Assembly: GCA_902785885.1 (NCBI GenBank)
Contig: CADAAS010000001.1
Location: 1 to 37,388 of the forward strand
Direction: 5' to 3'
Source: Pseudoselenomonas ruminantium
GTDB lineage: Bacteria; Bacillota; Negativicutes; Selenomonadales; Selenomonadaceae
DNA length: 37,388 nucleotides
A program made the translations under genes and the position numbers. Below the pieces are notes generated by a model. That model did not search any database, had not been told where the DNA came from, and saw only the letters and a list, made by a program, of their open reading frames with translations. Below, piece after piece: positions 2,451 to 37,388 of the stretch (its first letter is position 1; each line of letters begins with the position of its first letter).

Positions 2451-2471
2451 GTGCGACTGGAGGTGCTTATT

Positions 2472-4055
2472 GTGGGCACATATCTGAACCCTGGGGCGGG
2501 AAAACTGCAGCAGTCCCGCAACAGTGAAATATACATAGATAAAAGCGGCATGCTGGGCTATCTCAATCATGTAATCAACACGGAACAGCGCTTTGTCTGC
2601 GTCAGCCGGCCACGGCGTTTTGGCAAGTCGATGTCGGCTAACCTGATCAGCGCATACTATGACCATAGCGTTGATGGCAGAGCGTTATTCCATGGCATGG
2701 AAATTGAAAAGGACAAAAGTTTTAATCAGTACGTTAGCAACTACAATGTGATAAAGATTAATATGCAGGAATTTTTGAGCCGGACAGATAGTATGGAGGC
2801 ATTGCTATTGCGCCTGCGCAAAATTATCTTGCGTGATTTATTGCGTGAATATGAGAACATTGATTTCTTCGATACCAATGACCTGATTGAAACCATGCAG
2901 GATATCTATGCTGAAACGCAGCGGCAGTTTGTCATCATCATTGATGAATGGGACTGTATCTTCCGCGAGGAGAAAAATCACAAGGAGCAGCAGGACCAAT
3001 ATCTGGACTTTTTGCGGGACTGGCTGAAGGACAAGGAATATATTGCCCTTGCCTATATGACCGGCATTCTGCCCATCAAAAAATACGGTACCCACTCAGC
3101 GCTCAATATGTTCTCCGAATTTTCCATGTTGGACCAGGGCAGGCTGGCGGTCTATACCGGCTTTACCGAGGCGGAAGTAAAAGCCCTCTGCGAGCGGTAC
3201 AATATGGACTTCATACAGACCAAAGAATGGTATGACGGCTATCGGCTGGAAGGCTGCGGTGAAGTCTACAGCCCCCGTTCCGTAGTGCAGAGCATGCTGA
3301 TGGGCAAGTTCAACAACTACTGGAACCAGACCGAGACCTTTGAAGCCCTGCGCGTCTACATTGACATGAATTATGATGGCCTGCGTGATGCCATCCTGGC
3401 TGTTATGGCGGGTGGCCGCGTGGAAATCGACAGCCGTTCCTTCGTCAATGACATGGTTACCTTCCACAGCGCGGATGATGTACTGACCTTGCTGGTGCAT
3501 TTGGGTTATTTGGGCTATGATGAACCGAACAAGGAAATCTTCGTGCCCAACAAGGAAATCATGGACGAATTCGTTACCGCGACCACCCGTTCTGAATGGT
3601 CGGAGGTCATGCACTCCATCAAAAAATCCAAAGCCCTGCTAAAAGCAACTTTAGCAGGCGATGAAGCTGCGGTAGCGCAGGGGATAGCCGAAGCCCATCT
3701 GGAAACCAGCCATATCCAGTACAATGATGAAAACGCCCTGTCCTATACCTTGTCGCTGGCTTATTATGCCGCCCGTGAACATTACCAGATGATACGCGAA
3801 CTTCCCACCGGCAAGGGCTTTGCCGATATCGTGTTCATCCCCAAAAAACGCTTTGCCGATCGCCCGGCCATTGTAGTAGAACTAAAATGGAACCACGATG
3901 CACAGACTGCTATCCGGCAGATAAAAGCCAACGCTTATCCTGCGGTGCTGCAAGGACTGGAATACAAGCAGGTAATTCTTGTTGGCATCAACTATGATAA
4001 AAAAACACGGGAACATAATTGTCGAATCGAGAAACAGCAGCTCGATATGTTATAA
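2472..4055 (+). CDS. AAA-ATPase-like / PD-(D/E)XK nuclease-like protein (DUF1703 type)
   Basis: About 527 residues. The N-terminal part matches the AAA-ATPase-like family common in anaerobes: GTYLNPG start, EIYIDKSG, a P-loop-like RPRRFGKS (about 46-53) and a Walker B FVIIIDEWD (about 153-161). The C-terminus has a PD-(D/E)XK nuclease-like core with GFADIVF (Asp452) and VVELKW (Glu470-x-Lys472). I place the start at GTG 2472 because GGAGGTG (2459-2465) sits 6 bases upstream and family members begin with this GTYLNPG; an in-frame GTG at 2451 would precede the ribosome site. The cellular role of the family is not established; suggestions include mobile-element or defence roles. It lies between flagellin genes, directly after a flagellin remnant and terminator, so it looks like a separate cargo gene. 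Family assignment is firm, function is not. Confidence 0.9.
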   Translation: MGTYLNPGAGKLQQSRNSEIYIDKSGMLGYLNHVINTEQRFVCVSRPRRFGKSMSANLISAYYDHSVDGRALFHGMEIEKDKSFNQYVSNYNVIKINMQEFLSRTDSMEALLLRLRKIILRDLLREYENIDFFDTNDLIETMQDIYAETQRQFVIIIDEWDCIFREEKNHKEQQDQYLDFLRDWLKDKEYIALAYMTGILPIKKYGTHSALNMFSEFSMLDQGRLAVYTGFTEAEVKALCERYNMDFIQTKEWYDGYRLEGCGEVYSPRSVVQSMLMGKFNNYWNQTETFEALRVYIDMNYDGLRDAILAVMAGGRVEIDSRSFVNDMVTFHSADDVLTLLVHLGYLGYDEPNKEIFVPNKEIMDEFVTATTRSEWSEVMHSIKKSKALLKATLAGDEAAVAQGIAEAHLETSHIQYNDENALSYTLSLAYYAAREHYQMIRELPTGKGFADIVFIPKKRFADRPAIVVELKWNHDAQTAIRQIKANAYPAVLQGLEYKQVILVGINYDKKTREHNCRIEKQQLDML

Positions 4056-5733: not shown

Positions 5734-6150
5734 ATGGATTATAGGCGCAATTATGATGATGAGGTGTTGAAAATGCGCGGGGATAAAAGACAAAAACAAA
5801 TAGCCTTACAGGTCAGCATTGCGCTGATGGCGGGGATGTTCAGCTTTGTGCCGGTTTCTTATGGCGCACCGGTCGGTGGTGTGGTCAAGAATGGTTCGGT
5901 GGATATCAAGGCATTTGATGCCTCGACCAATACGTTAAATATAAACGATACGGCTGCAGCCACGGGCACGCCGCATAACAATGTGATTGACTGGCAGGAT
6001 TTCTCTGTTGCCAAGGGAGAAACTGTGCAGTTTGACGGCGGTGCGAAAACCAATAACTACATGAATATTGTCACGGGCGCGAATACTTCGGATATCCGAA
6101 TACTTCGGATATCAACGGCACGATTAAAGGTGGCAATGAAGTATACCTGA
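5734..6150 (+). CDS. TPS exoprotein TpsA, N-terminal fragment cut by frameshift
   Basis: First part of a two-partner secretion exoprotein. From ATG 5734 the product has a basic start, a hydrophobic stretch (about 23-40) and a plausible signal-peptide cut at SYG|APVGG (44/45). An alternative ATG at 5773 with GAGGTG six bases upstream would give a more ordinary signal peptide. After that begins the TPS (haemagglutinin activity) domain: GGVVKNGSVDIKAF, NVIDWQDFSVAKGETVQF, NYMNIVTGANTSDI. Residues 1-121 are native; the last 17 are out of frame because of the 17-bp tandem duplication at 6080-6113, and translation stops at 6150. With one copy removed the frame runs into NGTIKGGNEVYLINPNGIIFG, the expected NPNG-containing end of the TPS domain, and on to 17555. 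As written, the product would be a useless exported stub. Confidence 0.85.
   Translation: MDYRRNYDDEVLKMRGDKRQKQIALQVSIALMAGMFSFVPVSYGAPVGGVVKNGSVDIKAFDASTNTLNINDTAAATGTPHNNVIDWQDFSVAKGETVQFDGGAKTNNYMNIVTGANTSDIRILRISTARLKVAMKYT
6080..6113 (+). repeat. Perfect 17-bp tandem duplication that breaks tpsA
   Basis: CGAATACTTCGGATATC occurs at 6080-6096 and again, unchanged, at 6097-6113. The extra 17 bases shift the frame. Deleting one copy joins codon ATC (6094-6096) to AAC (6114-6116) and restores a single frame of about 3,934 codons. The junction also creates a perfect 14-bp palindrome, TTCGGATATCCGAA (6087-6100), which could help slippage during replication. Confidence 0.95.
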
Positions 6151-6188
6151 TTAACCCCAATGGCATTATCTTTGGCAAAGATGCAAGT

Positions 6189-9100
6189 GTGTCCGATGTG
6201 GGGAGCTTTTATGCTTCGACCAGGGAAGTGGTGGTTACGGATGCCGTAAATGCGGCCACAGCTGGCAATATGGGAGCTTTAATTACTGCAGGCAATTCCA
6301 CTAGCGGTGCAGCGATGGATATTGTCAATATGGGCAAGATTTCAGCGGATAAGGTCGTACTGGAAGGGGAAAATATCCGCTTATTGAATTCTGCCGATAT
6401 TACGGCCCCCAATGGCGTTACGGTGCGTGCTGATGAAGGTTATATTCATGTAGGCAGTGCAAATGGCACCGGTGGAGCAGGATATGTTTCGGAAAATTTG
6501 ACTGCCAGCGGAGCAGTTGTACCTGTTGAGCAGTTTACCTTGGTGGATTCGACCAATTGGAATACTACGCTGGGTACAGGTGCGGCGGTCAGTGGCAACT
6601 ATATGTTGTCTGAAGATATTGATGCCAGTGCCATTAGTGGGTTTAAGAATGTAGCTTCTTTTACGGGAAAGATTGATGGTAATTTTTATGCAGTAAAAAA
6701 TATTACCAATGGTACCTCAGGTTTATTTACATCTACCAATAATGCAACTATTGTCAATATGGGGGTGAAAGATTCTACATTTTCAGCTTCAGGGGGAGAT
6801 ACGGGAGCGTTTATTCAAACAGCTGTTGATACTACGCTTATAAATGTATATAATGATAACTCCAATATAACTGATGCTAGTGATTATTCAGCTGGCCTGG
6901 TAGGTTTTGCAAACGGGATTACGATTAAATCTTCATATAGTACAGGAAATGTAAGTTACGGTAATAGTGCTGCTGGTGTAGGTATAGTTGGTTATTTAAA
7001 TGGTGGAACAAACAACGAAGTAACAGATAGTTATAGTACAGGAAGTACTTTTAATGGACTTATTTCAGGTGGAAGTAACGCTGCTAGTATAACCTTTGAC
7101 CGTACTTTTTCAAAAGGAACTGCATTTAGTGATAATTATAAAAAAGCTACTGTAAAAAATTCTGTTGTTATAGGAAATGGTCAATATCGTGTTGCGGGGA
7201 ATACTGGCATTGAAGGAGACAAGACAGGGACTATAGATCTTACTAAATTAACGGGAATAACGAATTTAGTAGCAAATAATGGGACTACATCGGATTCACA
7301 ATTATGGAGCACAGTAAAGGATATTACGAATACTGGTGGTTTGCAGCACAGCGGCACCAAACTCGTCCGTCCCACCTGGCGCATTTACGAGGGGCAGTCT
7401 GCGCCCATTTTAACCGCATTTACGCAGGGCATCAAAACGACCAGCTACAATTATGAATACTTTGATTCCAACAATGCGATTGATACCGCTGCCGCAAAAT
7501 ACAACAATGGTGCCAACAACGGGCAGGATATGACGCCCTATACCTATGGCACGACATTGGATGGCCTGGTCTACAATGGCGATACGTTAAAAATCGTGGA
7601 CAGCAGTGGCAATGCGGCCACTTCGAATGCGACGACCAAGGTCATAAATGATGCCGGCACGGTATTCAAAAAGGCGGCCAATAGCACATCGACAGTTGAT
7701 GCCAGCCATGTATTTTACAATGATGCTGGTCAGCATGATGCTACTTATACGCCTCCGACAGGTACGCAAACCACAGGCACGCAAAATAAGCTGGCGTTTA
7801 TTTGGTCTGACCAAAAAGGCTATGATTTGGTGGGCAACAATATCTCCATTGCACCTCGTCAGGTGACGCTGACCAATAATCTAAGCGGTCAGACCATTGT
7901 TAAGGAATACGATGGTTCCTATGATGCAGCCAAATATGTACCCAACCTGTTTAATGGTTCCAGCACCACATCTTCAGGTGTTTTGCCTGTTGATAGCGGC
8001 TCAATCAAGGTAGGTTTTGACCCCAATTCCAATCCTACAGCTACTTTTGTGAATCGTGGCGGCACGACACCAGATGCCAATGTTGGTGCGGACAAGCAGG
8101 TATTGATTAACGGCAAGCTTTTGCTTACCGATGGCAGTGGTAATGCCTATACGGGCCATAATTATGTCATCGTAAATAGCAGTGGTAATCCAGCCTCCAG
8201 CGTGTCGCTGAACACGACTGTGCCTGCCGCGATTTACCAGCGTCAGCTGAAGGTATCGTTTAACGGCACGGGCATAACGAAAACTTATGACAAGGATGAA
8301 TTTGTCAAGGACAGCAATGGCAATCTGCGCTCGTTTAGCCAGAGCGATTTCACGCTGGATACGACGAATGTGGTTTCGGGCGATAGTGTGTCTTTGGTTG
8401 TAGCGGCGAACAACAGCCCTAAATATGTTGATAAAACCACGGGGCAAGTGCAGGTAAATGTTGGTACCCATGATGTTGAGGTGGGCGGCGTTACCCTTAC
8501 CGGTGGTACGGAGTCCAAGAACTATACGCTGGTAGATGCCAGCGGGACGCCGGTGTATAGCGAGCTGGGCATTGTTACCGGCGTTAACCAGCAGGGGAAT
8601 CCCATTGGCACGGGTACTGGCGGGGGAACATTCTATACCACGGGCGATATTACCCTGCGCTCTTTGGGGGATACCGGCTACAAGTGGTTTAAGACTACGA
8701 CCAGTGGTACGCCGAATTATTTGACGGCCACCAAAGAGTATGATGGAAAGTCTGACTATGCCGATCCAGGGACATTCTATGTCAGCAATGCCGGTTCATC
8801 TTCATCATCGGCTACTACCGGCATGGTGGCAGGGGATAATCTGGATTTTCAGGTGACTGCGGCAGAGTTTACGAATGACAGCACCAACGTGAATTCCACG
8901 GCGGTTCGTGATGCCAATACGACCACCACCCCGCAGGGCGTGCGCTATACCGTTACGGTCAGTGGCTCTGCCGCCGGCAACTATACGTTTGATTCCGCGG
9001 CGGCTATTGCTGCCGGTACGGCTACAGCACTAAGCAATGGCGGTACGGCCAAGGTTATGGGCGAGGGCAATATTACGCCCCGTACAATCCATGTGACTAC

Positions 9101-12100
9101 GCCGCAGGGGAAAGTCGCAGATAAAACGTATGATGGGGATGCTTTAGTCAAGGATGCCAATGGCAATACCACCTTTGACCTGACTTCCGGATATTTGACT
9201 TATGCGAATACGAACACCTATCAGCAGCTGGTCAGCGGTGATGGCTCCAAAATTGATATCACGGGTCTTTATCAGGCTGGCAACGGCTATGCGGATAAAG
9301 ATGTAAATTATGATGCGACGAATGCCGCCAATCCGGTTTTGCAGAAGGATATTGTTTATACGGCCAAAATCATGCAAAACGGCGTGGTTAGCCCGAACTA
9401 TGTCTTTAACATATCCGGCAGCAATCAGGCAACGTTCAACGGCAAAGGTACGATCAATCCTGTGCAGTTAGGCGCAATTACCTTTAATAGTGTATCGAAA
9501 ACCTATGATGGCAGTGCCGCTGTCACCAATACCAAGAATACAACTGCACCGCAGTATACCGATGACCAAATCAAAATCAATACGCCTACTGGCATAATTT
9601 CCGGGGAAACAATCAGCGATGTTTTCCATGTGGACAGCAATGGTAATCTGGATAGCACAGGGGCTGCCTTGCTGGCTAACGGCAGTTTTACGGCCAACTA
9701 TGGTGATTTGGGGTCCAATGGTTTTACGCTGAATGCCAACGTGAAACGTGACCCGCAAAACCTCAGCAATATTTTGGCCAGGGATGTGGAATATGTCGGC
9801 ATTAGCAATTTGATGAAGAATCATAACTATGTTCTTCCTTCAGCTACAGCTGCTAGTGACAAGGTCTATGGTTCCGGTACGATTAATCCTTTCCTGGTTA
9901 CGGATAAAAGCTGGATTAAGCTTGATAGGAACAGCACGCCCATTACCAAAACTTATGATGGCAATGATTCGATTGCCAATCCGATGAACTATCTGAACAC
10001 CACCGGCAACAACAAGGCCAATGCTACGGTTACGACTCCCGCAGGCAAAGTTTTGCCTGGCTTGGCTTCTACGGTTGCTGGAGCGAAATATTCCGACAAA
10101 CACAGCAATAACAATGCTGTACAGAATGTTATTTATACCGTTGATTTTGTAGAATCGGGGAATTACGGCATTGACAGCAGTTTGAAAAACGCCCAAGGTC
10201 AGGTGGAATTAACGTTGGTGGGCGATGGCGTAATCACCCAGAAGCATATTATTGCCACCACGCCGAAAGACCCGAACGTGACCAAGACCTATGATGCTAC
10301 GGATACCATCAGCAAGACCGGCAATGCCTTGGTGGATATCAGCAGCGGCATTTTGTCCGTTGACCAGTCAAGGGTAACGAATGGCACTACAGCGAAGTAT
10401 GTGGCAAATGCCAGTGGGGCGGCGGCTGATGCCAGCACCACTAGCGGCGATAAGACTGTGGAATATACCTTGGCATTACTAGGTGATACCTATCAGGATT
10501 ATCTGCTTGATGATGGCAATGGCAATACGACGATTACCGGTGCGGGCACAATCAACAAACGCAACCTGGTCATATCGGGCAACACCAATCATCATAAGGC
10601 GTATGATGGTACGGCCAAGGTTACGGATATGCCCACCAGCCTGTCCGGCTTTACGTTTGGTGATGCACAGGATACGACGGTTTTGAACCGGGACAACTTT
10701 GATATCACGAAGGTCAGCGGGCTCTATGGTTCGGGGACTACGGATGCATCCTTTGGCACGCAAACCAATGTAGGCAGCTGGGATGTGCAGTATAGCGGCT
10801 TTTTCACGGCTTTGGGCTCAAAAGCGAAAAACTATACCATCAACGGCACAAGCTACAGCAGCACTGGCAGTACGGGAACGGCGTATGGCCACGGAAAAAT
10901 CGATCCGGCAACGTTTGTTGGTCAGTTTATCTTTAAGTTGAATGGTGGTATTACACAAACCTATAGCGGTTCCGCTGATGTCGGACAGTTTGAGTCCAAT
11001 ACGACTAGTACGGCAAAGGATAATTTCCGACGTCAATGGGTCGATTTAACGAACAGTGGCGTAGATATTGATAACGATGGTGTGATTGATATTACGTTGG
11101 GCAATGGTGCTTATACCTATACGATAAATTCGGCAACGTATACCACGGGAGCTGATGCAGGCATCAATAAGCCGGTAAAGTACACCATTACGCTTAATCC
11201 TGCCAGCTTGTCGAATTATACCGGTGCACCTAGTTCGGTAGTCCTCAATGATACCATCACAAATGGCGAAATCAAAGCGCGTGAAGTTTTTGTCGATTTG
11301 ACTACGCTGGCAAAAAATGGTCTGACCAAGAACTATGATGCTACAGGAGCGATCTACAATAACGACAACAAGGCCTATTCCACGGATTCTGCTGTGGGTA
11401 CGGTTCTTGCCGGCAGCAGCATTGTGACGTTTGACCCCGTGGATACGGTGAACCATACAGGTCTGGTCAAAGGCACAAATGCCAGCACGGGTGCGTACAC
11501 GAATTTTGATGCTGGCGGCAGCAAGGTGATAAATTATACGGCAGATATCAGTGGTGACAGTGTTTCCAATTATATTTTCAAGGATAAAAATGGCAATGTC
11601 CTGACAAATGGACAGGGGGCAGCGCTGACGACCAATAATAATACCATCAATGCGTTTGGCGTGGTGTTGACGCCAAACGCCGTAAATAAGACCTATGATG
11701 GTACTATGGCGGTTACCCAGTCGATGGCGCAGGGCGCACTGCAGCTGGGCATTGCAGCTGGCGGCCAGACGGTAGCTTTGCAGAATATCAATGGCAATAC
11801 AGGCGTATACGATAATCCCAACGTGAATCCGGATACTAATGGCAACCCGGGGATTCACAAGGTGACGTATTCAGGTCTGAGCTTAGGGGATAGCAACTAC
11901 AAGCTGGTAAATGCTTCCGGGCAGGAACTGAATCTGGATAGCAGCAACCTGTATACCATAGATGGCACAGGCACGATTGATCCGGCAAACTATAGCGGGC
12001 AGTTTGTGTTCAAACTGAAAAACGGTATTAATCAAATTTATAGTGGCTCTGCGGATGTAGGACAGTTGGAAAACAACACCACAGCTGCGGACAAAGACAC

Positions 12101-15100
12101 CGAACGTAGAAAGTGGGTGGATTTAACTAAGAGTGGTGCTGACCTTAATAGTGATGGTGTTGTAGATATTGCCCTGAACAATGGTGACTATACCATTACA
12201 CAGGCTGTATTTACGGCAGGGCCGGATGCAGGGAAAAATAAACAGGTAGATTACACGATAACGTTGAATCCTGTGGCGTTGAGCAACTATAAAAACATTC
12301 CTGCATCGGTTGTCCTGAATGCCAGTATCACGGATGGTGAGATTAAGGCACGTGAAGTTTTTGTCGATTTGACTACGCTGGCGAAAAATGGTCTGGCCAA
12401 GAATTATGATGCTACGGGGGCAATCTACAATAACGATAACAAGGCCTATTCCACCGATACGGCAACAGGTAACGTTCTGACGGGAAACAGCATTATAGCA
12501 TTTGACACTGTAAATACGACGAATCATACGGGCTTGGTGAAAGGCACGAATGCCAGCACGGGCGCGTATACGAATTTTGATGCAGGGTCAAATAAGTCCA
12601 TAGAATACACGGTAAATATCAGCGGGGATAAGCTCAGTAACTACATTTTCAAAGATGCCAATGGCAATGTGCTTTATGACTACTATAATGCCAACGGCCC
12701 GCAGCAGATGACGCCGCTTGTCACCAACAACAATACCATCAATGCTTTTGGTGTGGTCGTGACGGCTGACCAGATTGCCAAGCCCTATGATGCTACGGAT
12801 TATGTGGCTCCGGCAACAGCGCAAAATGCCTTGCATTTAGGCAGCGCGGTTGGCAATGATGTGGTATCCTTGCAAAATCCAGCAGGCATTAATGCCCACT
12901 ATGTCGGCGTTAATGTGGATGACAATGGGGATGGCACGCCGGATGTCCATGCCGTGAATTACACCGGCCTGGACTTGGGCGTAACCGGCTCTGCGCTGAC
13001 CAATTACCAGTTGGTAGACAGCAATGGAAACGCCCTGGGCACGGATACGAACGGCCTGCATAAATTTGCTGGGACAGGCATCATCAATCCCTACAAACTG
13101 ACTGCCGGGGATGTTACCATTAACATTGGTGACGCAAGCAAGACCTATGATGCGACCAAGGATGTACTGAAGAATGGCAGCGTTACCGACCTTGCCAACA
13201 ACTACATCACGGATCACTATGTGACCATCCCCAATACGGCGGGCGGAACGCAGGAAAATCTTGTTTTTACCAGTTATAGCGCCGAATACAATGAAGCCAA
13301 TGCTACTGCCAATCCGGTTAAGCCCGGCAATCGCGTGGACTATCGTCTGGGGCTTGGCAATTCAAACTACGATTTTTCTGGCTTGCAGGCAGCCGGCCTG
13401 GTCAATAACAACAATGAGTGGATAGCGTCTACCGGCGGCAACATTGATAAGGCTGTGGTAAAGGCCAGCCTGGCCAATAATCCGCTGGACAGCACCATTG
13501 TGAAAACCTATGATGGCAAGAACAATGTCATTCAAGACGTTACGGGCAAGGTGTCTGTAGCCGGCCTGCTTACGGCCAAGGATGGCACGGTTCTCAACGT
13601 GAATGCCATCAATGCCCAATACAAGGATAAAAATGTGGCCAGGGATGCAAATGGCAATGTGGTGGACAAGGATGTTTACTATCATGTGGAACTGTCGGGA
13701 GCGGCCAAGGATAATTACACGATTGTGGGAGCAACCGGTGCTAACTATGCCAGCCTGACGGACAACACGGGTACCCTTGCCGGCACGGGCAGGATTACGC
13801 CCAAGGAATTGACGATAGACTTTAAGCCGGCTGAACGTGGTTATAACGGCAAGGCCAATGTAAATGCTGCGGATATTCAGGTGGAAAAATTCAACGGCCT
13901 GCAGGGAAATGACAGCATTGCGCTGGACAGCACCGCAATTGGCAAGATTACAGGTACTTATGGCACAGGTGACAGTACCGCTGATTTTAAGGCCGATGGC
14001 AATGTAAAGCGCAATGGCGATGCCGTAGGCTATAAGTCGGTGAAGTATGAACATGTGGCAGATGCCTTTGCAGATTATCTTGCACGCAACCTGAATACCG
14101 ATGCAGCCAACTATACGGTGGCAAAGGATACGTTCTACAAGGAGAGTGACAACAAAGGCAAAATCAATCCCGTAGTCCTTTCGGATATCAAGGCAAAATG
14201 GCAGGGCGTGGACAAGGTATATGATGCCACGGCAAATGTGCTGAATCCCGAAAATACCATGAAACTGGTCACGAAGGACACGGCATTGACCGGCAAGGAA
14301 ATCGAATTAACCTACACCGGTGCGGCAAGTGGCGTCTATGTGGACAGCAATGGCGCAGCCCAAAAAGATGTGGGAAACCATGCCCTGAAGTATAGCGTTA
14401 CCGAAGTGAAAAAGAATCTGGGGAACTATCAGCTGGCAGATTCTGTAGCAAGCAGTGCCGAGCGTGATTGGCTCAGCACCACGGCTGCGGACAATGTTGA
14501 CGGACAAGCGGTTACGGGCGAAATAACCCCGTTGACGCTTAATGTCATCGCGCAGGATGGCTTCCATAAGATTTATGATGGAACCGAAGAGATTGCAGGC
14601 AGCGAGGCCCAGGCGAAAATCGGCTTTGGCGCAGCGCAGGCTGCTGTGGTGCAGCGGGATATCGCTGCCGGCGAAATCAGCTATGACGTGGATGCGCATT
14701 ATGTGGGCAGCGATGCCAATGTTGCCCCCGGCGTTATCCGCAACCAGAAGGATATTGCTTATAGCCTGACACTGAAAGGGAATACCAAGGGCAACTATGT
14801 CCTGCAAGGAGCGGTGAATGATATTTTTGAAGGTACCGCTAAGCTTGGGGACATTGAGCAGCGCAAGGTTTATGTGGATGCGCTGAATGTTACAGGGCTC
14901 GACAAGGCTTACGATACCACGAAGGACCTGCCGGCCGATTATTCCAGCAATGGACGGTTTGCCCTTAGGGCCGCGGATGATGCCACGGGCGTAATCCAGA
15001 ATGATGATGTCCAGTTGGATTTTGCTGCAATTAAGGGAGCATACCTGAACGGCCACGTTCAGCGTGATGCAGATGGCAAGCTTGTTCCGCAGGGAATTGC

Positions 15101-17555
15101 CTTCAATAACTTCAAGTTGACGGGAACCGGCAACCTGGGCAATTACGTTATGGGCACGGACAGCTTGTCCGGGAATGGAACCATTCGTCCTGCTACATTG
15201 ACCGTTTCCATCAAGGTGGCGCCGACCAAGGTTTATGATGGTGAAAAAGCGCTCAGCACCCCCTATAATACGAAAGATAATCTTGCCCTGTGGGGAGTTC
15301 TCGGCGACGATGATGTTAACCTGGTGGTTAACTCTGCAGGATACCAGGATGCAAATGCTGCAACCGGCAAGGAATATCGCTATGGCATCAGCATTGACAA
15401 TTTGGACTATCAGCTTGCACAAGGGGAAAATACCCCTGCAATCACGGTGTCGGGCAATGGCCAGGCTGGTGAGCTTACGGCCTATGATGGCACGATTGTG
15501 CCACGGACGCTGACTGCCAGCGTGGTCAAGGACATGGTCAAGGTTTATGATGGAACGAATGCTGGCAAGCAGGATGCAATAAAGAACATTGCCCTAAGTG
15601 CAGGTTATTTGGACAAGGACAAGGATAGCTTGGGGCTGGTGGCAAATGCCGTCTATGATGGCAGTGACGCCGCAGGCAACCGCAAGGTGACCTATACATT
15701 GTCCCTGGGCAATACGAATTACCAGTTAAGCGATACCGTGATCACTGGTGACGGGGCAATTGAAAAACGCAAGGTATGTGTAGTGGCTGATGGCCTGGTC
15801 GGCATTGACAAGGTTTATGATGGCACGTCCGCGCTTCCCAGTGGCTTTACGAATATGGGACATTTTCGGCTGGCAGGTTATGATGCTGCAACAGAAACTG
15901 GCATTGTGGCCCAGGATGCGGATATTGACTTGGACATTGGGGCGATTGCTGGTTCCTATGCCAGTGCCCATGTCAAGCGTGATGCTGCTGGGCGGCCGAT
16001 AGCGCAGGATATTGCGTTCAATAATTTCCTGCTGGCTAATGACAATGGCAATTACATTGTCGAGCCAACCAGCATTGTCGGCAGTGGCACGATTACGCCA
16101 CGGAGCTTGTCCGTAGGCATTAAGGAAGCCCCCGTTAAGGTCTATGATGGCGAAACGGCGCTTGCTTCCACCTATGCGGCCAATGACAATTTGGTTCTTG
16201 AAGGGGTGCTCGCTGGCGATAATGCCAATTTGCTGATTGACTCTGCGGCCTATGCAGATGCCAATGCTGGCAAGAACAAGGAATACAGCTACCAAATCAG
16301 CCTGGGCAATGGCGACTATGAGCTGGTGCAAGGCGCAGGCAAGCCGGCGCTTGCCGTAACGGATAATGGCCAGTCTGGCACCATTACCGCACAGGACGGC
16401 ATCATAACGCCGCGTACCCTCACGGCCAGCGTAATTCGGAACATGACCAAGGAATACGATGGAACCACGGATGGTGTTGAAAATGCTGTAGCCAATGTAA
16501 GCATGGGCAATGTTGTAAATGGCGACCGTATCGGCTTGACCGCAACCGCAGTTTACGACAATCCCAATGCAGGAAAATCCGAGGATACTGATGAACTACA
16601 AGAACATCAGGTTACTTATACTCTGAGCCTTGCCAATCCGAACTATCAGCTGGAGACCGATATCCTTACGGGGACCGGCACGATTTCCCGCAAGGGGCTT
16701 ACGATTGTGGCCACCCCGGCCAGCGTGAATATGGGTGAACCCCTGCCGCAATTTACGGGCACGGTTGAAGGGCTGGTAGCTGCAGACAGCGGCCTGGCCT
16801 CAAGCTTTGCCTTTAATACGCTGCTGGGCGTGAGCACGTCCAATGTCACGGGCGCACAGACCCAGTATCCAGTTTATGGCTGGTATCGCAACAGCTATGA
16901 GGGCGGCAATTTCGGTCTGAACTACACCTATAGTCAGGCCCCGGCCAATGAAACGGCCTTTACCGTGAACTACATCAACACGGATATGGGCAACCCGGAC
17001 CTCAAGCCGACCCCGACCCATGATGTCTATCAGCAGGTGGCCAAGGATGTCACCAGTGGCTTTGGCGATAACAACGCTGCCGCCATTCAGTATGTGGACA
17101 AGAACGGCAAGGTTCTTGCCACAGAGACGATTGGCAGCGGCACAATTGCCACCGGGGAAACCATGGATGGACTGACGGCTCAGGGAACGGACCTGGCCAA
17201 TATCGGCATTGTGGGCGGCGACATTGTCAACCTTGAAGGTGCAGATGCAGCCGGCATAGCCAATATTGAGATGCAGGACAAAGGGGCTGTGGTGAATCTG
17301 GAAGTGTATTCGCTGAACGGGGAAAAGACCTCAACAGACGGCAATCCGGCAGCGGAGATTGTCAGCACGGACAGCCGCAATGCCTTAGGCAGCATCCAGA
17401 TTGTCGATGAATCCGGTCATGTGCTGGAAGAAATCGACCAGGACAAGGCTGAGAAAGAGGAAAAGGAAGGCGAAATCGCCATTCGGTCTTCAGACGGACA
17501 GAACGAAAATGAAATCGAACTGACCGTGGAAAGCACAGGTGTAAATGTGGCCTGA
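6189..17555 (+). CDS. TPS exoprotein TpsA, main body (giant YDG-repeat adhesin)
   Basis: Rest of the exoprotein; its frame is already open from 6114, encoding the last TPS-domain segment with INPNGIIFG. GTG 6189 is only the first start-type codon after the break and has no ribosome site or signal peptide, so it is not a natural start. Order of parts: end of the TPS domain (to about 6470); a GLUG-like beta-helix section (about 6530-7340); about 25 YDG-type repeats (about 7880-16690) each opening with a TYDG- or YDAT-type motif; an MBG-like domain (GLTIVATPASVNMGEPLP onward, about 16695-16980); and an unrecognised, acidic C-terminal tail. Such proteins cross the outer membrane through TpsB and act at the cell surface, commonly in adhesion. 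The tpsB partner starts 60 bases after the stop. Strongly Asn/Thr/Gly-rich, with very little Cys. Whether any of it is made depends on reversal of the 17-bp duplication. Confidence 0.88.
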   Translation: MSDVGSFYASTREVVVTDAVNAATAGNMGALITAGNSTSGAAMDIVNMGKISADKVVLEGENIRLLNSADITAPNGVTVRADEGYIHVGSANGTGGAGYVSENLTASGAVVPVEQFTLVDSTNWNTTLGTGAAVSGNYMLSEDIDASAISGFKNVASFTGKIDGNFYAVKNITNGTSGLFTSTNNATIVNMGVKDSTFSASGGDTGAFIQTAVDTTLINVYNDNSNITDASDYSAGLVGFANGITIKSSYSTGNVSYGNSAAGVGIVGYLNGGTNNEVTDSYSTGSTFNGLISGGSNAASITFDRTFSKGTAFSDNYKKATVKNSVVIGNGQYRVAGNTGIEGDKTGTIDLTKLTGITNLVANNGTTSDSQLWSTVKDITNTGGLQHSGTKLVRPTWRIYEGQSAPILTAFTQGIKTTSYNYEYFDSNNAIDTAAAKYNNGANNGQDMTPYTYGTTLDGLVYNGDTLKIVDSSGNAATSNATTKVINDAGTVFKKAANSTSTVDASHVFYNDAGQHDATYTPPTGTQTTGTQNKLAFIWSDQKGYDLVGNNISIAPRQVTLTNNLSGQTIVKEYDGSYDAAKYVPNLFNGSSTTSSGVLPVDSGSIKVGFDPNSNPTATFVNRGGTTPDANVGADKQVLINGKLLLTDGSGNAYTGHNYVIVNSSGNPASSVSLNTTVPAAIYQRQLKVSFNGTGITKTYDKDEFVKDSNGNLRSFSQSDFTLDTTNVVSGDSVSLVVAANNSPKYVDKTTGQVQVNVGTHDVEVGGVTLTGGTESKNYTLVDASGTPVYSELGIVTGVNQQGNPIGTGTGGGTFYTTGDITLRSLGDTGYKWFKTTTSGTPNYLTATKEYDGKSDYADPGTFYVSNAGSSSSSATTGMVAGDNLDFQVTAAEFTNDSTNVNSTAVRDANTTTTPQGVRYTVTVSGSAAGNYTFDSAAAIAAGTATALSNGGTAKVMGEGNITPRTIHVTTPQGKVADKTYDGDALVKDANGNTTFDLTSGYLTYANTNTYQQLVSGDGSKIDITGLYQAGNGYADKDVNYDATNAANPVLQKDIVYTAKIMQNGVVSPNYVFNISGSNQATFNGKGTINPVQLGAITFNSVSKTYDGSAAVTNTKNTTAPQYTDDQIKINTPTGIISGETISDVFHVDSNGNLDSTGAALLANGSFTANYGDLGSNGFTLNANVKRDPQNLSNILARDVEYVGISNLMKNHNYVLPSATAASDKVYGSGTINPFLVTDKSWIKLDRNSTPITKTYDGNDSIANPMNYLNTTGNNKANATVTTPAGKVLPGLASTVAGAKYSDKHSNNNAVQNVIYTVDFVESGNYGIDSSLKNAQGQVELTLVGDGVITQKHIIATTPKDPNVTKTYDATDTISKTGNALVDISSGILSVDQSRVTNGTTAKYVANASGAAADASTTSGDKTVEYTLALLGDTYQDYLLDDGNGNTTITGAGTINKRNLVISGNTNHHKAYDGTAKVTDMPTSLSGFTFGDAQDTTVLNRDNFDITKVSGLYGSGTTDASFGTQTNVGSWDVQYSGFFTALGSKAKNYTINGTSYSSTGSTGTAYGHGKIDPATFVGQFIFKLNGGITQTYSGSADVGQFESNTTSTAKDNFRRQWVDLTNSGVDIDNDGVIDITLGNGAYTYTINSATYTTGADAGINKPVKYTITLNPASLSNYTGAPSSVVLNDTITNGEIKAREVFVDLTTLAKNGLTKNYDATGAIYNNDNKAYSTDSAVGTVLAGSSIVTFDPVDTVNHTGLVKGTNASTGAYTNFDAGGSKVINYTADISGDSVSNYIFKDKNGNVLTNGQGAALTTNNNTINAFGVVLTPNAVNKTYDGTMAVTQSMAQGALQLGIAAGGQTVALQNINGNTGVYDNPNVNPDTNGNPGIHKVTYSGLSLGDSNYKLVNASGQELNLDSSNLYTIDGTGTIDPANYSGQFVFKLKNGINQIYSGSADVGQLENNTTAADKDTERRKWVDLTKSGADLNSDGVVDIALNNGDYTITQAVFTAGPDAGKNKQVDYTITLNPVALSNYKNIPASVVLNASITDGEIKAREVFVDLTTLAKNGLAKNYDATGAIYNNDNKAYSTDTATGNVLTGNSIIAFDTVNTTNHTGLVKGTNASTGAYTNFDAGSNKSIEYTVNISGDKLSNYIFKDANGNVLYDYYNANGPQQMTPLVTNNNTINAFGVVVTADQIAKPYDATDYVAPATAQNALHLGSAVGNDVVSLQNPAGINAHYVGVNVDDNGDGTPDVHAVNYTGLDLGVTGSALTNYQLVDSNGNALGTDTNGLHKFAGTGIINPYKLTAGDVTINIGDASKTYDATKDVLKNGSVTDLANNYITDHYVTIPNTAGGTQENLVFTSYSAEYNEANATANPVKPGNRVDYRLGLGNSNYDFSGLQAAGLVNNNNEWIASTGGNIDKAVVKASLANNPLDSTIVKTYDGKNNVIQDVTGKVSVAGLLTAKDGTVLNVNAINAQYKDKNVARDANGNVVDKDVYYHVELSGAAKDNYTIVGATGANYASLTDNTGTLAGTGRITPKELTIDFKPAERGYNGKANVNAADIQVEKFNGLQGNDSIALDSTAIGKITGTYGTGDSTADFKADGNVKRNGDAVGYKSVKYEHVADAFADYLARNLNTDAANYTVAKDTFYKESDNKGKINPVVLSDIKAKWQGVDKVYDATANVLNPENTMKLVTKDTALTGKEIELTYTGAASGVYVDSNGAAQKDVGNHALKYSVTEVKKNLGNYQLADSVASSAERDWLSTTAADNVDGQAVTGEITPLTLNVIAQDGFHKIYDGTEEIAGSEAQAKIGFGAAQAAVVQRDIAAGEISYDVDAHYVGSDANVAPGVIRNQKDIAYSLTLKGNTKGNYVLQGAVNDIFEGTAKLGDIEQRKVYVDALNVTGLDKAYDTTKDLPADYSSNGRFALRAADDATGVIQNDDVQLDFAAIKGAYLNGHVQRDADGKLVPQGIAFNNFKLTGTGNLGNYVMGTDSLSGNGTIRPATLTVSIKVAPTKVYDGEKALSTPYNTKDNLALWGVLGDDDVNLVVNSAGYQDANAATGKEYRYGISIDNLDYQLAQGENTPAITVSGNGQAGELTAYDGTIVPRTLTASVVKDMVKVYDGTNAGKQDAIKNIALSAGYLDKDKDSLGLVANAVYDGSDAAGNRKVTYTLSLGNTNYQLSDTVITGDGAIEKRKVCVVADGLVGIDKVYDGTSALPSGFTNMGHFRLAGYDAATETGIVAQDADIDLDIGAIAGSYASAHVKRDAAGRPIAQDIAFNNFLLANDNGNYIVEPTSIVGSGTITPRSLSVGIKEAPVKVYDGETALASTYAANDNLVLEGVLAGDNANLLIDSAAYADANAGKNKEYSYQISLGNGDYELVQGAGKPALAVTDNGQSGTITAQDGIITPRTLTASVIRNMTKEYDGTTDGVENAVANVSMGNVVNGDRIGLTATAVYDNPNAGKSEDTDELQEHQVTYTLSLANPNYQLETDILTGTGTISRKGLTIVATPASVNMGEPLPQFTGTVEGLVAADSGLASSFAFNTLLGVSTSNVTGAQTQYPVYGWYRNSYEGGNFGLNYTYSQAPANETAFTVNYINTDMGNPDLKPTPTHDVYQQVAKDVTSGFGDNNAAAIQYVDKNGKVLATETIGSGTIATGETMDGLTAQGTDLANIGIVGGDIVNLEGADAAGIANIEMQDKGAVVNLEVYSLNGEKTSTDGNPAAEIVSTDSRNALGSIQIVDESGHVLEEIDQDKAEKEEKEGEIAIRSSDGQNENEIELTVESTGVNVA
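6530..7340 (+). other. AT-rich GLUG-like section inside tpsA
   Basis: Encodes YMLSEDIDAS, GKIDGNFYAVKNI, SGLFTSTNNATIVNMGVKDS and SAGLVGFANG, a pattern typical of GLUG-type beta-helix repeats in secreted adhesins. From about 6640 to 7320 the DNA is visibly richer in A and T than the sequence on both sides, with abrupt return to GC-richer sequence at about 7340. This suggests a separately acquired module. Judged by eye, not computed. Confidence 0.6.
10902..13080 (+). repeat. Two-copy 1,077-bp higher-order repeat in tpsA
   Basis: The block 10902-11978 and the block from 11979 to about 13080 encode the same series: GQF.FKL..GI.Q.YSGSADVGQ, then REVFVDLTTLAKNGL.KNYD and ATGAIYNNDNKAYSTD, then GLVKGTNASTGAYTNFDAG, then NNNTINAFGVV. 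The offset is 1,077 bases (359 codons), spanning about three YDG units. The middle third is nearly identical while the edges have diverged, as expected for a multi-domain duplication. Confidence 0.88.
14862..16690 (+). repeat. Two-copy 906-bp higher-order repeat in tpsA
   Basis: Blocks 14862-15767 and 15768-about 16690 encode parallel series: RKV.V.....G.DK.YD, then GIAFNNF or DIAFNNF, then GTI.PR.LSV or PATLTV, then VKVYDGE.AL and TPRTLTASV. The offset is 906 bases (302 codons) and covers about three YDG units. The identity is lower than in the 10902-13080 pair, so this looks like an older duplication. Confidence 0.82.
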
Positions 17556-17615
17556 ATGTGGTAAAATAAGCGTGATGAATGGTTTGTAATTAGGGACTGG
17601 CAGCAAGGAGACAGC

Positions 17616-19280
17616 ATGAAAACAATAGCTAAAGCGCAAATTGCAGCAGGATTTTTCGCCGCATGTTTCAATTTGGGCGGGGGAGCGGTCATGGCAGCTC
17701 CCTCACTGTCACAGCCCGGACAGGATATACAAAAAGAACTTCCCAAACCGGAGGCGGAGGTGGTGGATAATGCACCGGACAAGCCCAGGCAGGCGCCGCA
17801 GGTGGAATTTACCATCACCAACTTCCGTCTGGAAGCCCCGGACCTTTATCTGGACAAGGGGGAACTGACCAAGATCCTGCAGGACGGCATGGGGGAGAAA
17901 AAGACCATGATGCAGCTCAATGCTACGCTCACGGCGATCACCCGCTACTGCCGGCAGCATGGCTATCCGGCGGCGGCAGCCTATGTGCCTGCACAGGAAA
18001 GCAGTGACGGCATGATTACCATCAAGGTTATCCCAGGCCGTTACGGCGAAATCAAAATCGATAACCGCAGCCGCTTGAAGGAACGGATTGCCAAAGGTTT
18101 TGTGAACAGCTTGAAATCCGGCGACATCATTCGTACGGGCAAGCTCGAAACCACCCTGTATTCCATTTCCGATGTGAGCGGTACCAAGGCCGTTGGTGTA
18201 CTGAGTCCCGGCAAGGAATTCGGCACCAGTGACCTGACTGTGCGCATTGAACGGGGCAAGGGCGAGAATACCGTGCTTTATGTGGAAAACTATGGCAGCA
18301 AGGACACAGGCCAGTATCGCTATGGCCTGCAGGAAAACCTCTACGATGTCAGCGGCAACGGCGACAAGATTTCCGTGGGTGTGCTGCTGTCCAATCGGAA
18401 TATGCACAACTACTATGCCAACTATGAAACCATTGTGGGGCGCGGCGGTGCAACGCTGGGCTTCGGTTTCAGCCGCATGGATTATCAGACCGGCCTGCAG
18501 GGCATGGACATGAATGGCACCGCGGAGACCTTCAGCGTGTTTGGCCATCGCTCCCTGTATCACTTGACCAACAGCGGCCTGACCTTCAAATATGGTTATG
18601 ACCATCGCCGGTTGAAGGATAAGTATTCGCTATTCCCGAACCTGAATCAGGAAAAGCGTTCGCATGGCTTCTATGTCGGACTGGATGGCTTCGAACGGCG
18701 CAATGGCGTTATCTTCAATTATGGGGTAAAGCTCACCAGCGGTACGATAAGCCTGGATTCCGGACTCGGTGACCGCAACAACATCGAAGGTCGTTTCACC
18801 AAAGGCGAGTTCAATGTGTCGGCGGTGCAGCGGCTGGGCAATCGTGCGGATGTGCTGGTGAAAGCCAGCGGGCAGCTGGCCAGCCGCAACCTGGACGGCT
18901 CCGAGCGCATGTATCTGGGCGGAGCAAGCGGCGTGCGTGCTTACCCGCAGGGGGAAGGCTCCGGCGATGTCGGGCTGATGGGCACGATTGAACCGCGCTT
19001 TTACACCAGCGTACCCGGCCTGGTCTTCAGCACCTATTTTGATATCGGCCATGTGAGCTATTTCAAGGATGGACGCACCAGCCGGAACTATACCAGCGGC
19101 ACAGGTGTGGACTCCACAGGCATGACCCTCAAAGGCTATGGCGTAGCCCTTTCCTACACCAAGCCTAACGACTGGTTTGCCCGCCTCGACTATGCCCGCC
19201 GCATAGGCAGCGACCCGAACCTCAGCGAAAAGGCCAAAGCCAAGGGCAGATTGTGGTTTATGTTGGGCAAAATATGGTAA
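17616..19280 (+). CDS. TPS outer-membrane transporter TpsB (ShlB/FhaC family)
   Basis: 554 residues, normal for the family. A signal peptide is visible (cut near VMA|APS, about residue 27). A Pro-rich linker is followed by a POTRA region (about 62-150: VEFTITNFRLEAPDLYL, a GYPAAAAYVPAQ segment, MITIKVIPGRYGEIKI) and a second POTRA-like segment to about 220, then a beta-barrel rich in alternating aromatic and glycine residues. The conserved loop motif VRGY/F of this family appears as VRAYPQGEG (Val440-Tyr443), and the chain ends in an aromatic residue (KIW), typical for assembly by BamA. It moves the TpsA partner across the outer membrane. AAGGAG lies 6 bases before ATG 17616. It starts 60 bases after tpsA with no terminator, so the two are one operon; tpsB itself is intact although tpsA is broken. 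Confidence 0.93.
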   Translation: MKTIAKAQIAAGFFAACFNLGGGAVMAAPSLSQPGQDIQKELPKPEAEVVDNAPDKPRQAPQVEFTITNFRLEAPDLYLDKGELTKILQDGMGEKKTMMQLNATLTAITRYCRQHGYPAAAAYVPAQESSDGMITIKVIPGRYGEIKIDNRSRLKERIAKGFVNSLKSGDIIRTGKLETTLYSISDVSGTKAVGVLSPGKEFGTSDLTVRIERGKGENTVLYVENYGSKDTGQYRYGLQENLYDVSGNGDKISVGVLLSNRNMHNYYANYETIVGRGGATLGFGFSRMDYQTGLQGMDMNGTAETFSVFGHRSLYHLTNSGLTFKYGYDHRRLKDKYSLFPNLNQEKRSHGFYVGLDGFERRNGVIFNYGVKLTSGTISLDSGLGDRNNIEGRFTKGEFNVSAVQRLGNRADVLVKASGQLASRNLDGSERMYLGGASGVRAYPQGEGSGDVGLMGTIEPRFYTSVPGLVFSTYFDIGHVSYFKDGRTSRNYTSGTGVDSTGMTLKGYGVALSYTKPNDWFARLDYARRIGSDPNLSEKAKAKGRLWFMLGKIW

Positions 19281-36492: not shown

Positions 36493-37388
36493 ATGGAAAA
36501 GGTCAGAGGAACGAACTTGCATAATTTAGTCCGCAGTTTTCGAGAGGCCGTGTGTAATGCCGAATGGCAATCTGCCCTGAATTTTGCACGGCAGATAATG
36601 CCGCTCGCGCCACGTAATCGTGACGTGTGGGAAAGCATGGCCGGCCTTTTCCTGGATAATAATTGTATTGTCGAGGGGCAAAAGGCCATAGAGTTTTTGG
36701 AGAAACATTTTTCGCCGCAGCCTGGCTGGTTGATGCTGAAAACAAAACTTGCTCATTTGCAGGATGATTGGGATATGGCCATTTCACTGGGTGAAGAAGC
36801 TTTGGCGGCAAATTTGTCCAATGCGCAAAAAGCTGTAGTATATAATTGTTTGGCGCAAATTTATACCGAAATAAATGAGGAAGAAAAGGCTGTTTCTTAT
36901 CATAAAGCGGCAAGTATGCTGCCGGATAATCCCGGGGCATTGATATCTTATAGCAATTATCTTTTTTATATGCATTACTGTGAATATGGGCAGACGGAGT
37001 TTGTAGAGGCGGCAAAGCTTTATAACACTGCATTTGCATATGTTGTCCCCTATCAGCATAAGCAGCATAAGCAGCATAAAAAAATCCGTATTGGCTATCT
37101 GTCGGCAGATTTTCATGCCTCAGTAACAGCTGTATTTTGTTATCCGTTTTTCAAGGCCTATGATAGAAGGAATTTTGAAGTATATGTTTATGCCAAAGGG
37201 GAAGCGGACAATATCAGCCGTGATTTAGCACAATATGTGGATGTTTGGCGCAATATAGATGGCCTGGAGCCTGAGAATGCAGCGGCTATGATCTATGCTG
37301 ATGGCATAGACATACTCTTTGATCCCTCGGGGCATAATAAAAATAACTGTCTGCCCATTTTTGCTTATAAGCCTGCACCCGTTCAGAT
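36493..37388 (+). CDS. TPR / O-GlcNAc-transferase-like glycosyltransferase, 5' part (cut by window end)
   Basis: The frame is open to the window end; 298 residues are seen. Residues 1-about 185 are helical TPR-like repeats (SFREAVCNAEWQSALNFAR, then AQIYTEINEEEKAVSYHKAA). From about 196 begins a family-41 (OGT) catalytic region: KKIRIGYLSADFH (His208), FEVYVYAKGEADNIS, DGIDILFDPSGHN (His281) and FAYKPAPVQ, in the order seen in bacterial OGT-like enzymes. ATG 36493 is preferred; an in-frame ATG at 36484 lies too close to AGAGGG (36476-36482). It would transfer a sugar from a UDP-sugar to Ser or Thr of proteins. The region between the TPR and catalytic parts holds a 9-base repeat (QHK x3). Bacterial OGT-like genes often sit in flagellar glycosylation regions. 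Confidence 0.88.
   Translation, partial: MEKVRGTNLHNLVRSFREAVCNAEWQSALNFARQIMPLAPRNRDVWESMAGLFLDNNCIVEGQKAIEFLEKHFSPQPGWLMLKTKLAHLQDDWDMAISLGEEALAANLSNAQKAVVYNCLAQIYTEINEEEKAVSYHKAASMLPDNPGALISYSNYLFYMHYCEYGQTEFVEAAKLYNTAFAYVVPYQHKQHKQHKKIRIGYLSADFHASVTAVFCYPFFKAYDRRNFEVYVYAKGEADNISRDLAQYVDVWRNIDGLEPENAAAMIYADGIDILFDPSGHNKNNCLPIFAYKPAPVQ
37054..37080 (+). repeat. Three 9-base tandem repeats in OGT-like gene
   Basis: CAGCATAAG at 37054-37062 and 37063-37071, then CAGCATAAA at 37072-37080. They encode QHKQHKQHK between the TPR region and the catalytic domain. Since 9 is a multiple of 3, copy-number change would alter linker length and not the frame. Confidence 0.9.

Follow-up and report, generated by a model that had tools for sequence, protein, structure and literature searches.

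In a draft genome of the Selenomonas ruminantium group, the giant adhesin gene tpsA has probably been inactivated by a real, recent and spontaneous 17-bp duplication, which makes it a possibly revertible null allele and not a demonstrated phase-variation system. The gene lies in a window of 37,388 nucleotides (the whole stretch of DNA analysed, positions 1 to 37,388 of contig CADAAS010000001.1 from assembly GCA_902785885.1). So far the finding amounts to a single allele in a single draft genome. If real, this null allele of a giant adhesin gene, found in a gut commensal, is clean, recent and possibly revertible, and it provides a cheap marker to seek in rumen metagenome reads.

The 17-mer CGAATACTTCGGATATC occurs twice on the forward strand, back to back and with zero mismatches, at 6080–6096 and 6097–6113, and the reading frame changes in the second copy. 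According to an exact-match search, these are the only two occurrences in the whole draft assembly (2,683,727 bases); when up to three mismatches are allowed, the window contains three matches versus 0.08 expected by chance. A simple slip between direct repeats usually leaves microhomology at its ends. Such slippage on microhomology at the flanks can be discarded here, as the repeat has exactly 2.00 copies and its neighbouring bases mismatch (G at 6079 versus C at 6096, A at 6114 versus C at 6097); comparison of these bases revealed no direct microhomology at the flanks. The junction of both copies makes a 14-bp palindrome, TTCGGATATCCGAA, which can be read directly at 6087–6100. A longer inverted repeat, GATATCCGAA-TAC-TTCGGATATC, whose 10-bp arms enclose a 3-nt loop, is also a product of the duplication and spans 6091–6113 (calculated DNA hairpin energy of -7.9 kcal/mol). 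Both the perfect duplication at 6080–6113 and the 14-bp palindrome had been reported in a preliminary description of this DNA and are borne out, whereas the 10-bp-arm inverted repeat was absent from it.

The locus at 5734–19280 is, as judged from its sequence, a two-partner-secretion pair, tpsA-tpsB. The 5' fragment of tpsA (5734–6150, forward strand), identified by translation and by a PF05860 match, encodes a signal peptide and the first part of the TPS domain. From the ATG at 5734, the frame encodes 138 amino acids, 121 native and 17 out of frame, and then reaches a TGA at 6148–6150. The remainder of the gene (6114–17555, forward strand) carries no stop and, according to translation and domain search, encodes the NPNG region, a long passenger and YDG domains; its frame runs without interruption over 6057–17555 (3,832 codons), with NPNG just behind the break. 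The intact tpsB gene (17616–19280, forward strand) was found by domain search over 17616–19277 to encode an outer-membrane partner with POTRA_2 (PF08479) and ShlB (PF03865) domains. The pair therefore shows a TPS domain near the N-terminus with NPNG and an adjoining TpsB with POTRA and an FhaC/ShlB barrel, but the continuous frame joining signal peptide and TPS domain that is found in relatives is lacking; tpsA of this genome is a broken member of two-partner secretion. The counts of 121 native and 17 wrong residues and the stop at 6150 given in the preliminary description are right, the frame of about 3,934 codons that it obtained by removing one copy agrees with the coordinate arithmetic, NPNG is in place in the downstream frame, and tpsB and the 11 kb behind the break, said to be fully open, contain an intact tpsB and no stop up to 17555.

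The pre-break half of tpsA scores 32.4 bits against PF05860, just under the cut-off of 33.5, and a scan of the whole genome recovered both halves, with scores of 30.7 and 29.5 bits that fall short of this cut-off, as would be expected of a split TPS domain. About five tpsB-like genes were found in the assembly (contigs C1, C15, C62, C75 and C188), with TPS domains at only two places; the missing TpsA partners may fall into gaps or score below the cut-off.

Export of TpsA proteins depends on an N-terminal signal peptide, and it is the TPS domain that TpsB recognizes (PMC5422565). Neither fragment should therefore reach the surface, and tpsA is predicted to be off in the assembled strain. The effect of the mutation can be viewed as follows: the added 17 bp would shift the frame, translation would terminate within the TPS domain, 138 residues from the start, and the cell would make no adhesin that can be secreted. 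A restart at GTG 6189, the first in-frame start candidate listed behind the break, would be an unlikely rescue, as it provides no signal peptide and the first part of the TPS domain would be missing.

The close relatives belong to the Selenomonas ruminantium group (UBA3715, RUG12654, RUG14411, ATCC 12561 and HD4). Signal peptide and TPS domain are encoded in one frame through the site in 19 relative genomes and in two further named records, and the relatives whose DNA aligns cleanly at the site show a 17-base gap relative to this genome. UBA3715, which is the closest relative downstream of the break, has a single copy of exactly this 17-mer in the same context; the duplication is therefore derived from a one-copy ancestor. 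The preliminary description had proposed to compare the site in related strains: these have one copy and an open frame, and two copies are not fixed among them. When 22 genomes of the genus were searched at the DNA level, 17 yielded similar sequence and the present genome a single locus, so that only the two-copy form of this strain is assembled and no one-copy allele stands beside it. No variable-number repeat tract is kept among the relatives examined, which come from outside the species and all have one copy. A search of viral contigs with the flanking sequence of the duplication gave no match.

The gene order flagellin-tpsA is conserved in relatives, and tpsB follows tpsA in HD4. A gene encoding an AAA-ATPase/PD-(D/E)XK protein lies between two flagellin genes in the window (2451–4055) and is 92–99% identical in UBA3715, RUG12654 and RUG14411 (only part of it in the last). 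The region of tpsA at 5734–7100 looks mosaic: its first 121 residues are 95% identical to RUG14411 and 93% to RUG12654 but only 66% to UBA3715, whereas the 304 residues starting at 6189 resemble UBA3715 at 90% and RUG12654 at 64%.

The form of the 17-bp unit suggests that the duplication arose by foldback template switching. The unit consists exactly of a stem (CGAA), a loop (TAC), the complementary stem (TTCG) and a palindrome (GATATC), an arrangement (stem of 4, loop of 3, stem of 4, palindrome of 6) that fits 166 of the 773,144 17-mers of a sample of the genome (0.02%). Its boundaries coincide exactly with those of the hairpin and palindrome, and the product expected from foldback matches the sequence base for base. 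The following model can be proposed. During replication, the growing strand would fold back on the short hairpin CGAA-TAC-TTCG and, once folded, would copy the neighbouring palindrome GATATC. The nascent strand would then pair again with GATATC on the template and copy the hairpin segment a second time, giving exactly the observed sequence. This model was framed after the sequence had been seen, and its stem is just 4 bp long. Arms of at least 10 bp are the outcome of 1.5% of random 17-bp duplications, and the two-copy hairpin reaches -7.9 kcal/mol, compared with -2.1 where UBA3715 has one copy. As UBA3715 carries the same unit unduplicated, duplication at this site is not inevitable. Template switching at quasipalindromes is established in Escherichia coli and resembles the proposed event in that copying after foldback leaves a more perfect inverted repeat; there, however, an imperfect palindrome is usually corrected, whereas here a tandem copy would arise from a 4-bp stem beside a 6-bp palindrome (PMC7202029).

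An assembly artefact, in which two contig ends with 17 bases in common were put together and the overlap kept twice, or in which the consensus took in a rare chimeric read, is an unlikely explanation. The genome, probably a MAG, is a fragmented 2.68-Mb draft (266 contigs, 86% complete), and the two-copy form is known here from the assembled sequence rather than from reads, which leaves some room for an assembly error or a minor variant. Against this, the 34-bp array is far below the usual read length, and the ends of the unit coincide with the hairpin and palindrome. Furthermore, 17 is an unusual length for a k-mer overlap, not being among those that assemblers usually employ. Perfect or near-perfect tandem duplications of at least 10 bp are few in the 773,841 bases surveyed, made up of the window and 40 further stretches of this assembly, and the tpsA case is the only perfect one that breaks a frame inside a gene; the other intragenic ones either have a length divisible by three or sit in a long frame that remains open, and the rest are intergenic. 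The lack of a second frame-breaking case in 774 kb argues against a systematic assembly fault, which can be largely rejected. Contig C26 of the same assembly carries two perfect two-copy duplications, one of a 57-bp unit inside a long open frame (3157–3270; a multiple of three) and one of a 68-bp unit between genes (9425–9560). The window itself contains, at 37054–37079, almost three copies of the 9-bp unit CAGCATAAG, in frame inside an open frame.

The duplication could also be the OFF state in an active phase variation whose one- and two-copy forms interconvert often and beneficially enough to make up a selected ON/OFF switch. The product of tpsA is a surface adhesin, the 17-bp unit is not divisible by 3, the partner tpsB and the downstream frame are intact and a hairpin lies at the junction of the copies. 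Nevertheless, this is distinctly improbable: every relative examined has one copy and no variable-number tract, the OFF form is found in one genome only and there are just two copies. Moreover, a 9-bp insertion is expected to revert at a frequency of at most about 1e-5 (PMC4022640). The ON/OFF switch of a giant adhesin put forward in the preliminary description thus holds at the sequence level for the OFF state (frame broken, stop at 6148–6150) but not for switching. Two copies of a 17-bp unit have the look of a one-off, spontaneous duplication that destroys function and may revert; they do not resemble an evolved phase-variation tract. Hairpins are known to promote slippage deletions between direct repeats (PMC4134008), and loss of one copy by slippage, perhaps aided by the hairpin with 10-bp arms, could restore the frame at low frequency.

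Short duplications that knock out a gene are already known, both as reversible events, in capsule genes of pneumococci, and as plain mutations, in lrp of Xenorhabdus nematophila. Those of pneumococci, found in the type 3 capsule locus, cap8E and tts (Waite et al. 2001, 2003, cited in PMC4243769 and PMC4022640), are described as spontaneous and reversible (PMC4243769). Their phase variation, as cited in PMC4243769, favours a switch in tpsA. As in these cases, a perfect short tandem duplication (17 bp, two exact copies, stop at 6148–6150) in one surface-related gene abolishes the product, but phase variation in pneumococci was reported from experiment, whereas the present case is one site of a protein adhesin gene in one genome of a rumen commensal. 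In X. nematophila, spontaneous tandem duplications also lead to loss of function and, with units of 26–116 bp, belong to a set of lrp mutations that the study considered plain mutations rather than phase variants, which argues against a switch; however, the units are longer, the gene encodes a regulator and this verdict covers all kinds of lrp mutation together (PMC6786866). Eight isolates with distinct lrp mutations showed no genetic reversion when grown; they are listed in that account as sense, nonsense, frameshift and transposon mutants, and duplication mutants are not named among them (PMC6786866). Among two-partner-secretion adhesins, HMW1A and HMW2A of Haemophilus influenzae also have tandem repeats that alter their output, and the phase variation of HMW1A through promoter repeats lends some plausibility to a switch, but these are many 7-bp promoter units giving graded expression, in contrast to two 17-bp units in a coding region with complete loss (PMC8262952). 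The literature searched on switching by short tandem duplications in bacteria yielded little beyond the pneumococcal and Xenorhabdus cases, and the search for phase variation in Selenomonas ruminantium yielded no paper. Should both forms be found in rumen metagenome reads, type Vb adhesins of non-pathogens would join the cases of duplication-based phase variation. It is highly improbable that the hairpin and palindrome in the TPS domain repeatedly make and lose the 17-bp duplication, so that the giant adhesin of a rumen commensal would flip ON and OFF by foldback template switching and not by slippage on short repeats.

The data support the view that the remainder of tpsA and tpsB, both open, were formerly under purifying selection and that the break is recent. 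Behind the break, dN/dS relative to UBA3715 is 0.146 over 1,771 codons, a value that mostly reflects history before the break. A stronger argument for recency is that the 3,788 codons behind the break contain no stop, though 3.0% of single changes would create one. This sets an upper limit (95%) of about 0.009 substitutions per site since the loss of selection, or 0.002–0.003 if indels occur at 5–10% of substitutions, limits that assume zero selection since the break; a gene that is intact most of the time would look no different. By comparison, synonymous divergence from the nearest relatives is 0.13–0.8. The preliminary description had considered the change recent or reversible and not old decay: recency is upheld by the stop-free codons, dN/dS and the intact tpsB, but reversibility is not, no one-copy form of this strain having been found. 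An old pseudogene in decay is barely credible, for even though the gene is broken and tpsA of the sister MAG RUG14411 is also shortened, from a different cause, the length of the open frame (3,788 codons without a stop) and the dN/dS of 0.146 lead to its rejection, and tpsB is intact. In RUG14411 (2111–3094 of the corresponding stretch), tpsA is shortened to 327 amino acids by a rearrangement, an insertion or a chimeric contig, its homology stopping abruptly near 3067 and being followed by unrelated sequence.
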